Positions 30,004-36,433 of a stretch of 36,433 nucleotides of DNA are shown here, piece after piece. Position numbers and translations under genes: made by a program. Within the stretch, counting starts at the first letter, position 1, and each line of letters begins with the position of its first letter. The notes beneath the pieces are model-generated. The model saw only the letters and a program-made list of their open reading frames with translations. It did no database searches and was not told where the DNA came from. This DNA comes from Opitutia bacterium (lineage in GTDB: Bacteria; Verrucomicrobiota; Verrucomicrobiia; Opitutales; T3Sed10-336): contig PWMU01000095.1 in the NCBI GenBank assembly GCA_003558065.1, forward strand, positions 1 to 36,433. The letters are read 5' to 3'.

Positions 30004-30087
30004 TGGTCGAATGGGTCATTATCAAATTTTGATTCAGGTTCGGCGGCCTTCGGCCCAATGCCTCGACCCGCGCTTTGCAAGCCGTTC

Positions 30088-30122
30088 GAAAATCCAAAAT
30101 CGAAAGTCCGCACTCTGAAATG
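30088..30122. repeat. Heptamer tandem repeat in the nuoH-nuoI spacer
   Basis: Five consecutive 7-base units on the plus strand: GAAAATC (30088), CAAAATC (30095), GAAAGTC (30102), the degenerate CGCACTC (30109), and TGAAATG (30116). It lies in the 148-base spacer between nuoH and nuoI, the longest in the operon. Its orientation is opposite to the repeat before nuoE. The rest of the spacer has no gene. A GC-rich CGGCGGCCTTCGG is also present. Confidence 0.7.
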
Positions 30123-33858: not shown

Positions 33859-33900
33859 ATGTGGGCGCAGTACCGGAATTTCTTGGAGAAAATGGTAATT

Positions 33901-35250
33901 CTAGGATTTCTGGTTTCGGGTTTCGGGCCCTTGGCTCGACGACGGCGGCTGTCCGTTGCCCGTCGCGGCGGAGGGGGCGTGATACGGGCAGCCTTTGCCG
34001 TCGAAATGCCGGCGGAAGTCGTCTTCAAAGTATTTGAGGGCGCTCTGGAGCGGTTCGACCGCTCCGGGTGCGAAGGCGCAGAACGTGCGTCCGGGACCGA
34101 GGAACTTGGCGTGCTGGTGAAGGATTCCCAGGTCGTCCTCACGGCCGCCGCCGCTTTCGATGTCCTCAAGGATTTTTTCCACCCAGGGAAGACCGTCGCG
34201 GCAGGGGGTGCACCAGCCGCAGGATTCACGGGCAAAAAAGCGCTCCAGGTTGAGGACCATGCCGACCGGGCAGGTGCGGTCGTCGAGCACGATCATGGTT
34301 CCCGTGCCGAGGCGGCTGCCGGCTTTCTGCACGGAGTTGAAGTCGAGCGGGAGGTCGAGGTGTTCCTCGACGAGAAAGTCGGTGGAGGCCCCGCCCGGTA
34401 TGACGCCGCGGAACCGGTACCCGTCGCGCATGCCGCCGGCGTGTTCTTCGATGATTTCGCGAAGGGGAGTTCCCAGAGGCAGTTCCCAGAGGCCGGGGTT
34501 CCTGACGCGCCCGCTGACCCCGTAAAGCTTGGTGCCGGCCTCCTCGGCGCGCCCGAGTTTTCTGAACCACTCGGGGCCGTGGCGGACGATGGGGGCGATG
34601 TTACAGAGGGTTTCGACGTTGTTGACGATGGTCGGTTTTCCCCAAAGGCCCACCACCGGCGGGAAAGGCGGCTTCGCCCGGGGAACGGCCCGGCGTCCTT
34701 CGAGGGCGTTGAGGAGCGCGGTTTCTTCGCCGCAAATGTAGCGCCCGGCGCTGGAGTGCAGGTGGATGTCGTGGCTGAAACCCGACCCGCGGATATTCTC
34801 CCCCAGGTAACCGGCGCGGCGGGCTTCTTCGATCGCGCGAGCGAGGGCCTCTTCGGATTTGCGGTACTCGGCGCGGAGGAAGATGTATCCGGTGGGCGCC
34901 TGGATCGCGTAGGCGCCCAGGATCATGCCCTCAAGGAGCAGGTGCGGGTTGCCTTCCATGAGGTAGCGGTCCTTGAAGGTGCCGGGCTCCATCTCGTCGG
35001 CATTGCACACAAAGTATTTCTGTTTCGGCGCGTTCTCTCCCATCGGCACGAAGCTCCACTTCATGCCGGTGGAGAAGCCGGCGCCGCCGCGGCCGCGCAG
35101 CTTGGAGTTCTCGACCAGAGACGTCATCTCCCCGGGCGCCATCGACCCGAGCGTGTTACGCAACGCTTCGTAGCCGCCGTTTTCCTCGTAGGCGGCGAGG
35201 TCGAGAGGCGGGGCGCCCGGAGTGATGTGCTCTGTAAGCGGTTTTTCCAT
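33901..35250 (-). CDS. nuoF: NADH-quinone oxidoreductase subunit F (NADH/FMN)
   Basis: NADH-binding flavoprotein subunit of complex I; 449 residues. The NADH/FMN sites are LRGRGGAGFSTGMKW (51-65), CNADEMEPGTFKDR (82-95) and SAGRYICGEETALLNALEG (167-185). Cluster N3 ligands are C344, C347, C350 (ESCGWCTPCRDGLPW) and C391 (TFCAFAPGAVEPLQ). The sequence follows E. coli NuoF closely. The last residues (GPETRNQKS) are encoded by the heptamer repeat at 33904-33927 and look like an added, non-conserved tail. It starts 9 bases after the nuoE stop. Confidence 0.97.
   Translation of the reverse strand: MEKPLTEHITPGAPPLDLAAYEENGGYEALRNTLGSMAPGEMTSLVENSKLRGRGGAGFSTGMKWSFVPMGENAPKQKYFVCNADEMEPGTFKDRYLMEGNPHLLLEGMILGAYAIQAPTGYIFLRAEYRKSEEALARAIEEARRAGYLGENIRGSGFSHDIHLHSSAGRYICGEETALLNALEGRRAVPRAKPPFPPVVGLWGKPTIVNNVETLCNIAPIVRHGPEWFRKLGRAEEAGTKLYGVSGRVRNPGLWELPLGTPLREIIEEHAGGMRDGYRFRGVIPGGASTDFLVEEHLDLPLDFNSVQKAGSRLGTGTMIVLDDRTCPVGMVLNLERFFARESCGWCTPCRDGLPWVEKILEDIESGGGREDDLGILHQHAKFLGPGRTFCAFAPGAVEPLQSALKYFEDDFRRHFDGKGCPYHAPSAATGNGQPPSSSQGPETRNQKS
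33904..33927. repeat. Heptamer repeat encoding the NuoF C-terminus
   Basis: On the plus strand the units are GGATTTC (33904), TGGTTTC (33911) and GGGTTTC (33918), followed by GGG. On the coding strand this is a CCCGAAA-type repeat, and being 7 bases long it reads in all three frames. It specifies the end of NuoF and contacts its TAG stop. It is the only copy that lies inside a gene. Confidence 0.7.
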
Positions 35251-35259
35251 ACAGTTCTT

Positions 35260-35724
35260 CTATTCGCAGTTCCGGAGGATTTTATCGACTTTGTCGGGGG
35301 TGAGGTCGCTGTGCAGGGTGTGGCCGATCATCATGGACGGCGCGCGGTCGCAATCGCCGAGGCAGGGAATCGGCAGCAGCGTGAACTTTCCGTCGGCGGT
35401 GGTTTGGCCCATGCCGATACCGAGGGATTTCTTCAGGTGGCTGCAGATCGAGTCGCAGCCCATGACCCAGCACGAGACGCTGTCGCAGAGATGGATCACG
35501 TTCCTCCCGACTTCGCGGCGGTAAATGAGGTTGTAGAAGGTGGCCACGCTGTCGACCTCGTGTTCGGTCATGTCGAGGAACCCGGCGACATCGCGCAGCG
35601 CCGAGTCGTCCACCCAGCCGCGGTGGAGTTGGACGACCTTCAGCGCTTCAATGCAGAGTGCCTGCTTGCGGGGATAGTGCGGAAGCTCGGCTTCGATTTC
35701 CTCGCGTTCTTTATCGCTGAGCAT
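35260..35724 (-). CDS. nuoE: NADH-quinone oxidoreductase subunit E
   Basis: Thioredoxin-like [2Fe-2S] subunit carrying N1a; 154 residues from the ATG at 35724 (MLSDKEREEIEAELPHYPRK). The cluster ligands C80, C85, C121 and C125 (LCDSVSC and CLGDC) match C92, C97, C133 and C137 of E. coli. EALKVVQLHRGWV, VATFYNLIYRREVG and GQTTADGKFTLLP are also E. coli-like. The reading frame stays open upstream through the heptamer repeat, but homology starts at MLSDKE. Confidence 0.96.
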   Translation of the reverse strand: MLSDKEREEIEAELPHYPRKQALCIEALKVVQLHRGWVDDSALRDVAGFLDMTEHEVDSVATFYNLIYRREVGRNVIHLCDSVSCWVMGCDSICSHLKKSLGIGMGQTTADGKFTLLPIPCLGDCDRAPSMMIGHTLHSDLTPDKVDKILRNCE

Positions 35725-35730
35725 GATCGG

Positions 35731-35758
35731 GATTTCGGATTTTGGAATTTGGATTTTC
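35731..35758. repeat. Heptamer tandem repeat in the nuoD-nuoE spacer
   Basis: Four exact-phase 7-base units on the plus strand: GATTTCG (35731), GATTTTG (35738), GAATTTG (35745) and GATTTTC (35752). It begins six bases from the nuoE start codon within a 91-base spacer and replaces any Shine-Dalgarno sequence. It is the cleanest copy of the family in the window. Confidence 0.8.
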
Positions 35759-35815
35759 GAGCGGCTCGCGGTGCGAGAGAGAAATGAGGTGGCTTGTTCG
35801 GCCCCGCCTCTTGCC

Positions 35816-36433
35816 CTATCGATCAATGTCGGCCAGCACGAAGTCGGTGGCGCCGATGATGGCGAGAAGGTCCGGGACGGTGTGGCCTTTGCTGATGAAC
35901 GGAATGATCTGCATGTGAGGGAAGGAGGAGGTGCGGATGCGAACGCGGTAGGGCAGGGTTCCTTTTTCGCTGGTAAGGTAATAGCTGTAGAGGCCCTTGG
36001 TTCCTTCGACGCAGCCGACCCCTTCGCCAGCGGGAATCACGGGTCCCCAGCTCACGCTGAGAAAGTGGGTGATGAGCGTTTCGATGTCGTGCATGGTGTG
36101 GTCTTTGACAGGGGGGGTCGTGAGGGGGTGATCGGCCTTGTAGGGGCCGCCCGGCATATTGTCGAGGCATTGGCGGATGATGCGCACGCTCTGGCGCATC
36201 TCCTCGATCCGGACGACGGCGCGGTCGTAGCAGTCGCCCTTGTGCGCGACCGGGACGTCGAATTCGAACTGGTCGTAACCGCTGTAGGGGCGTTTCTTGC
36301 GCAGGTCCCAATCCATGCCGGTGGCGCGGAGACTCGGGCCGGTGACGCCCCATTCGATGGCTTCCTCGGTGTTGTAGGCGCCGATGCCCTGGGTGCGCAC
36401 CTTGAGGATGCGGTTTCCCATGACCATCGAGTC
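35816..36433 (-). CDS. nuoD: NADH-quinone oxidoreductase subunit D or fused CD, C-terminal part
   Basis: The 49-kDa quinone-site subunit of complex I, running off the right edge of the window; about 205 C-terminal residues are present and the start is outside. Motifs are [71 protein letters not shown] and the C-terminal [14 protein letters not shown]. The sequence follows the E. coli NuoCD fusion closely ([19 protein letters not shown]), so the gene may be a nuoCD fusion, which only the neighbouring sequence can show. First nuo gene in view. Confidence 0.95.

Follow-up and report, generated by a model that had tools for sequence, protein, structure and literature searches.

Heptameric repeats, inverted pairs of heptameric tracts and proteins of intervening sequences (IVS) accompanied by heptamers have already been published, each separately. 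In a survey by Mrazek in 2007, heptamers outnumbered the other classes of long simple repeats in most genomes, and polymerase slippage was proposed to be responsible (as cited in PMC4679880 and PMC4692102). The GGGAATC heptamers of Xanthomonas and the GGGGATT heptamers of Nostoc are mostly intergenic and were studied as G-quadruplex sequences; two Xanthomonas genomes contained 70 and 75 convergent inverted pairs, and inverted pairs were few in Nostoc (PMC4692102). The IVS of Coxiella carries GACAGAT heptamers in its 5' part, in two or three sets depending on the strain, and terminal inverted repeats with a 28-bp stem; RNase III cuts where the first heptamer begins (PMC4990558). Accordingly, these heptamers would be located in the stem. 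Function and origin of IVS were still said to "remain unclear" in 2016 (PMC4990558). Here we describe a heptad tract directly before nuoE on a contig of an Opitutia bacterium (PWMU01000095.1, positions 1 to 36,433; this whole stretch of 36,433 nucleotides is termed the window). The tract probably represents a terminal arm left over from a dispersed, IVS-like selfish element, the rest of which was lost at this site.

The heptad tract before nuoE and its dispersed relatives

The tract consists of four heptads at 35730-35757 (Tandem Repeats Finder, TRF: period 7, 4.0 copies, 85 % matches, score 42). The initial annotation had recognized the same tract in a register shifted by one base, 35731-35758; counted from 35731, six bases (35725-35730) separate it, as had been noted, from the nuoE start codon at 35722-35724 on the minus strand. 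A lag-7 scan ranked it first among the period-7 stretches of the window, with 18 matches in 21 positions, a score reached in none of 200 mononucleotide shuffles of positions 34001-36433. Two weaker tracts, 33900-33926 and 30086-30121, are located at two further junctions of the nuo operon. In the source genome (G000; 4.13 Mb in 197 contigs) the pattern GGATTTNGGATTTNGGATTT with up to three mismatches gave 45 matches, overlapping matches within one tract counted separately, in comparison to 2 for the reversed control. By this degenerate pattern, such tracts are thus commoner than in the control, in contrast to the outcome that the initial annotation had named as a refutation. The same three-heptad pattern with up to two mismatches was searched in 36 genomes including the source genome. 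Strong enrichment was limited to G000-G004 and G006 (19-37 matches, controls 0-7); counts close to the controls were observed for G005 and G007 of the same family and for 28 genomes of other families. As for NuoE, its closest named relatives belong to the Opitutales metagenome-assembled genomes CSSed165cm_93 and CSSed165cm_470 (Verrucomicrobiota).

Judged by sequence, the heptamers before nuoE are the A end of a dispersed inverted-repeat element, made up of heptads, linker and GC hairpin. On the plus strand, the terminal arm GGATTTC GGATTTT GGAATTT GGATTTT runs from the nuoE side inward (35730-35757). It is followed by the 6-nt linker CGAGCG (35758-35763, plus strand; consensus CCAGTG), equally long in 15 of the 16 rows of alignment A1, and by the hairpin GCTCGC-GGT-GCGAGA with five clean pairs (35764-35778, plus strand). 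In A1 the stem is common to the copies and the loop is variable; the loops at the three orthologous nuoD-nuoE copies are GGT, CGG and AAA. The covariance model R1 scored the nuoE site, itself among the 16 training rows of the model, with 62.8 bits. A 10-copy A-end matrix, excluding every copy of the source genome, both nuoD-nuoE orthologues and the G001 copy at nuoH-nuoI, ranked 35728-35781 first in the window with 44.7 bits and a nuoH-nuoI site (30065, minus strand) second with 21.3 bits; the next-best positions, with about 2 bits, were shifted registers of both nuo sites. An 11-copy matrix, from which the orthologous nuoH-nuoI copy of G001 had not been removed, yielded 45.3 bits for the nuoE site at a window mean of -85 (standard deviation 16), and with this matrix linker and hairpin alone ranked second among 72,760 window positions.

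The arrangement of tracts was evaluated in 48 stretches chosen for holding tract matches. Among pairs not more than 300 bp apart, 26 were oriented "+ then -" and were located in 24 of the stretches, three were "+ +" and five "- -"; the single "- then +" pair was one stretch called on both strands. In the inverted pairs the GGATTT strand points inward. Better preserved copies have two different ends inside the arms: the A end with heptads, CCAGTG and GCTCGC-nnn-GCGAGC, and the B end with heptads, AAGTCC and TGCGC-TTC-GCGCA. Sixteen A-end and sixteen B-end copies, hand-picked for a recognizable hairpin, align nearly gap-free. Covariance models of the ends detected at an E-value of 0.01 between 9 and 18 A ends and between 10 and 21 B ends per genome in six of the eight family genomes, with rough E-values, some matched copies included in the models and cross-matching of the A and B models via the heptads; G005 and G007 had no A-end match. 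Beyond the family, R1 had matches in 25 further genomes (31 of 177 overall), with a maximum of 32 in G093, and the copies inspected there have the heptads and different cores.

Gene-less whole elements have a size of about 140-340 bp and are situated mostly in gaps between genes. They are bounded by a pair of inverted arms built of 7-bp units; better preserved ones additionally hold two distinct GC hairpins in subterminal position. The family resembles miniature inverted-repeat transposable elements (MITEs) in being short and dispersed, with inverted termini common to a gene-bearing element; the window copy retains one terminus. An exact short-gap inverted pattern had no match in 387 Verrucomicrobiota genomes, a result of too strict a pattern that is no evidence of absence. 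Counts of GATT heptads (184 of the 387 genomes) were not used as element counts, owing to overlapping matches, tandem arrays and some higher reversed controls.

Site history at the nuo junctions

On the minus strand, nuoE (35260-35724) is preceded by the 3' part of nuoD (35816-36433; 5' end beyond the window), both identified as open reading frames (ORFs) with orthologues. G002 and G003 carry a whole element in this junction, with the B end upstream and the A end adjoining nuoE; the window has the A end only. In the alignment with these two relatives, the remainder of the gap (35779-35815) lacks the core, the B hairpin and the second heptad arm. The A end comprises four heptads in the window and five in both relatives. 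Three outgroups (L101, L102, L103) have no element and gaps of about 20-30 bp. At the nuoH-nuoI junction a whole element is present in G001, an A end in the window (30065-30118, minus strand; detected by alignment, matrix and R1, 50.8 bits with the site as a training row) and none in G002. Thus, sites filled in some relatives are empty in others in these genome comparisons, which indicates that the element entered, and decays, within the lineage. It would have entered the nuoD-nuoE junction before the split of the window's genus and its sister genus, and the rest of this copy would later have been lost in the window genome. Since the B arm is lost, the nuoE copy can form no stem and is most likely inert. 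The best reading of the window tract is a relic of a non-autonomous IVS-like element.

RNA folding was compared with shuffled sequences. One whole gene-less element folds strongly (z -6.74), the nuoD-nuoE copy of G002 modestly (z -2.05), and the whole nuoD-nuoE gap of the window no better than shuffles (z +1.56). Terminal inverted repeats that could form a stem are present in whole sister elements; the window copy has one arm.

A third tract (33900-33926, plus strand), recognized by ORF, lag-7 scan and alignment, covers the last codons (PETRNQKS) and the stop codon of NuoF and was not seen in G002. It is only a candidate member of the element family. The alignment of NuoF to G002 stops at residue 430 of 450, some 20 residues before the end. 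Protein tails of the type NPKSEIRNP may represent arm read-through, as in NuoF here and in two four-helix-bundle proteins. Heptad tracts were also observed in long frames, at positions 926-983 of L071 (DNA polymerase III alpha-like, G002) and 1498-1593 of L210 (HsdM-like, G312), and are read through as PIQNPKSEIQNP-like stretches.

PF05635 genes between period-7 arms

Eleven loci were chosen for widely spaced tracts, and in four of them the inverted tract pair encloses one ORF of 123-149 amino acids. All four ORFs belong to PF05635 (23S_rRNA_IVP) and to the NCBIfam entry TIGR02436, "four helix bundle protein"; their hosts are members of families other than that of the window (two f14, one f56, one f73). 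Within the window's family, contig C351 of G004 has a PF05635 gene between arms of the family type, and a B-like hairpin is present at the right-hand arm. Its left 32-nt arm, ATTTTGGATTTTGGATCGCGGATTTTGGATTT, recurs exactly at four G006 loci and one G003 locus, none of them listed with PF05635. As far as the sequences go, one and the same arm bounds gene-less copies and a PF05635-carrying copy. The predicted fold of the G004 protein (predicted local distance difference test, pLDDT, 92.3) matches the S23-family structures 2rld and 2gsc; weaker matches were 4dwl and 8ub7, the Avd protein of diversity-generating retroelements (DGRs). Homology of PF05635 and Avd has been stated (PMC10053308). Other heptads, of the GTGATTG type, surround a PF05635 gene on contig C383 of G001; a separate locus of that genome (L065, C447) holds a long array of the GTGATTG type, about 158 bp. 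In the source genome, a PF05635 gene on contig C180 (L300) is located beside a CGAATAA-type array of about 225 bp, on one side only. One of eight genomes of other groups reached via the loci contained PF05635 (L324).

The association was assessed at PF05635 loci picked by hidden Markov model score, kinship or tblastn rank, and not for repeats. A flank of 220 bp was considered periodic with at least 16 lag-7 matches in 21 positions. From 60 loci of Verrucomicrobiota, 52 were usable and 8 too close to contig ends; 50 of 104 near flanks were periodic versus 5 of 94 far flanks at 900 bp and none of 2080 mononucleotide shuffles (Fisher p 3e-12). Periodicity was present on at least one side at 34 of the 52 loci and on both sides at 16. 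Periods 4-6 and 9-12 gave 0-3 flanks. All 30 loci of Gammaproteobacteria were usable, with 39 of 60 near flanks periodic versus 2 of 48 far flanks (Fisher p 9e-12); near the gene, periods 4-6 and 8-11 were absent and period 12 occurred twice. The plasmid set, 16 of 26 records found, from Cyanobacteriota, Chloroflexota, Bacteroidota and Spirochaetota, yielded 26 of 32 near flanks versus 1 of 32 outermost segments (Fisher p 7e-11). The heptad sequence varies between the loci, the 7-nt phase is constant. Left and right flanks were complementary with a score above 12.5, the value of the best far pair of the Verrucomicrobiota set, at 36 of 52 Verrucomicrobiota, 27 of 30 gammaproteobacterial and 13 of 16 plasmid loci; swapped flank pairs exceeded this value in 97 of 2652, 52 of 870 and 30 of 240 combinations, respectively. 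Period 7 was found in 44 of 74 intergenic gaps beside PF05635 versus 3 of 19 other gaps, a small control with approximate gammaproteobacterial gene ends. Ninety loci were tried for gene orientation and 65 evaluated with crude ORF calls: between co-directional neighbours, PF05635 was in sense direction in 45 cases and antisense in 3 (p 1e-10), and 17 loci were mixed. The 14 annotated plasmid loci with both neighbours included 11 sense and 3 antisense genes. Taken together, the flank statistics show that PF05635 genes of several phyla commonly lie between inverted arms of period 7.

The ribosomal setting was rare. Only one of 106 PF05635 loci (L369), with GACAGAA-type arms, had 23S rRNA motifs, three of the five tried; the link consists of motif matches, not of an rRNA model. 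The other 105 loci had none of the motifs, and where the neighbours were read, they were protein genes. The nuoE site likewise has protein genes on both sides and is no insertion into a 23S rRNA helix. An IVS-type PF05635 ORF is present in the G004 sister copy with the same arm type and absent from the gene-less copies and from the window site.

Several further settings of PF05635 genes and heptad arms were observed. A relative was present on two viral contigs. At L222 (G240, C32) the gene lies between apparent leuC and leuD, with a tandem 51-bp heptad-holding unit on the left and a masked stretch between. At the plasmid loci L325-L328 and L331 the PF05635 genes are embedded in operons for defence or restriction (DUF1156/Swt1, DrmD/MmeI, helicase/methylase); L335 and L337 are situated between cas2 and cas1. 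Long GATT-heptad arrays, mostly at contig ends, occur in G267 and G180 of one genus (L234-L259), many sampled relatives being without a match. L061 (G001, C154) contains three tandem copies of a 141-bp unit with a B-like end. Another high-copy family was seen at L236 and L252 (G463), with arms of the CATTKCC-GATTGAA type and the common hairpin core AAGGGTTCCAACCCTT. L068 and L196 are apparently one insertion site in two genera; the variable heptads TTGC and CTC are swapped between the arms, which suggests exchange between arms.

Alternative explanations and comparison with described systems

The initial annotation offered a slippage-prone expression switch as one reading of the tract, which would turn translation of nuoE on and off. 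Its position is the only evidence for this: the tract ends 6 nt from the ATG, a placement for which a translational role has been proposed in the case of TAACTGA heptamers before start codons (MacGregor 2015, PMC4679880). A copy-number difference of one unit from the orthologues also speaks for slippage. This difference is one between species, the units are only 85 % identical and such imperfect units disfavour slippage. Linker and hairpin accompany the tract at near-constant spacing, a second A end is found some 60 nt ahead of nuoI, and the NuoF tail holds a further tract. That the tract occupies the place of a ribosome-binding site, as had been remarked, is uninformative: on inspection by eye, no Shine-Dalgarno-like sequence precedes nuoE, nuoG, nuoH or nuoI here (nuoF has a weak AGAAGA), and the nuoE genes of the three outgroups have neither tract nor Shine-Dalgarno sequence. 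A switch is very improbable. The tract could conceivably be an array bound by RNA or protein, another reading of the initial annotation. That operons maintain the arms as a structure for regulation or RNA processing is, in our view, also quite unlikely. Arm and hairpin of the A end, not the core, are recognizable at nuoD-nuoE in three species, PF05635 copies are sense-biased and a whole copy folds strongly; against this, presence at nuoH-nuoI differs within one genus, the window genome has lost the second arm and its gap folds like shuffles, and the neighbouring genes inspected are of mixed functions.

An element of the repetitive extragenic palindromic type (REP, or its inverted doublet REPIN) moved by a Y1 transposase (REP-associated tyrosine transposase, RAYT) would explain short palindromes with a GTGG/GTAG-like lead (AGTGGCTCGC, AGTAGCTCGC), and the source genome has four PF01797 matches. 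The loosest B-hairpin pattern was matched at 4 of 10 Y1 loci; stricter patterns of the A and B hairpins, searched with a tolerance of one substitution, were absent from these ten loci, and period-7 arrays occurred in none of their 19 flanks and in none of 17 around ORFs. Of the twelve genomes searched, the richest in Y1 matches were G005 (30) and G007 (32), both without an A-end match. A REP-type origin appears unlikely; at the ten loci, the association with Y1/RAYT genes was not found and a Y1 transposase as mobilizer was not supported.

We regard the terminal arm of an IVS-like selfish element as the probable identity of the tract. Among the readings of the initial annotation, selfish junk came nearest, although the tract is no free-standing repeat and belongs to an element with hairpins, a mirror arm and sometimes a gene. 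Several observations weigh against our explanation. Since arms built of 7-bp units have a low sequence complexity, an arm shared exactly between loci counts for less than its length would imply. GGATTTT arms were not seen at the two PF05635 loci of the source genome, one with the one-sided CGAATAA array (C180) and one at a contig end (C159), and PF05635 genes occur also in G005 and G007 despite the missing A ends. Neither side had a period-7 array at 18 of the 52 Verrucomicrobiota loci, and period 8 was also raised in this set (10 near flanks, 1 far; 0 in the other two sets). Some loci, e.g., L283 and L289, are mutually homologous and the counts are therefore not fully independent. In gene-less elements, own arms paired no better than swapped arms (mean 20.6 versus 20.7), which speaks against an element-by-element compensation in the stem; arm complementarity results from both arms keeping the family unit. 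Element flanks read by eye showed no consistent target-site duplication, and no mobilizing enzyme was recognized. PF05635 is, to our knowledge, not a known transposase.

The selfish-element explanation would have the gene-less copies as non-autonomous derivatives of PF05635-bearing elements, which settle sense-oriented within transcription units. Their arms may pair in RNA into a stem cleavable by RNase III, as published for the Coxiella 23S IVS, and the cut would lessen the harm done to the host transcript. The four-helix-bundle protein, a relative of Avd, may bind the nucleic acid of the element. More tentatively, and with considerable doubt, heptameric repeats and PF05635 genes across bacteria could be joined into one class of RNA-level selfish elements mobilized by a reverse transcriptase in trans. 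Such elements would insert in sense direction into operons, rarely into rRNA genes, and form an RNase III-trimmed stem from the 7-nt-phased arms; an Avd-like pentamer would bind the element RNA, and the reverse transcriptase would copy it to new sites. The GGGGATT repeats of Nostoc, GGGAATC of Xanthomonas and GGATTNN of Verrucomicrobiota would then be arms, tandem expansions and solo relics. Period-7 arms as a common setting of IVS-type genes, in Verrucomicrobiota, Gammaproteobacteria and on plasmids from four additional phyla, join the puzzles of heptamers and IVS and make both testable; the link may account for a type of bacterial repeat that has long been puzzling. Among titles and opening lines of abstracts, no published description of heptad arms flanking four-helix-bundle genes outside rRNA was found, most subscription journals being beyond the coverage.

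The described systems share single features with the element. The TAACTGA repeats of Beggiatoaceae are heptads a few bases before start codons, and the accessible sections of PMC4679880 describe no hairpin. REP and TIRYT-flanking repeats (TIRYT, terminal inverted repeat-associated tyrosine transposase) are small dispersed palindromes, partly intergenic and abundant in O. terrae, and are, in contrast to the arms described here, tied to Y1 transposases (PMC3733652); the ten Y1 loci studied here had no period-7 arms. The repeats of Xanthomonas and Nostoc agree with ours in the 7-bp units and the mostly intergenic location; the available text of PMC4692102 names no link to a PF05635 gene. The likeness to cyanobacterial heptamers seen in the initial annotation was borne out on two Planktothrix plasmids, where four-helix-bundle (PF05635) genes have arms of (AATCCCC)n, which on the other strand reads as the Nostoc unit GGGGATT (PMC4692102). 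The DGR accessory protein Avd shares the fold of the G004 protein and the homology with PF05635 (PMC10053308), whereas a reverse transcriptase would not fit into elements as short as those described here. The 23S IVS of Coxiella burnetii has, like the G004 element, a PF05635-type gene between terminal inverted repeats, and also a variable heptamer copy number and a sense orientation in the host transcript, at a size of 428 nt compared to about 590 bp (PMC4990558). Unlike the 23S IVS, the PF05635 loci described here, with the exception of L369, had none of the 23S motifs tried and, where neighbours were read, reside among protein genes; gene-less derivatives with subterminal GC hairpins also occur.
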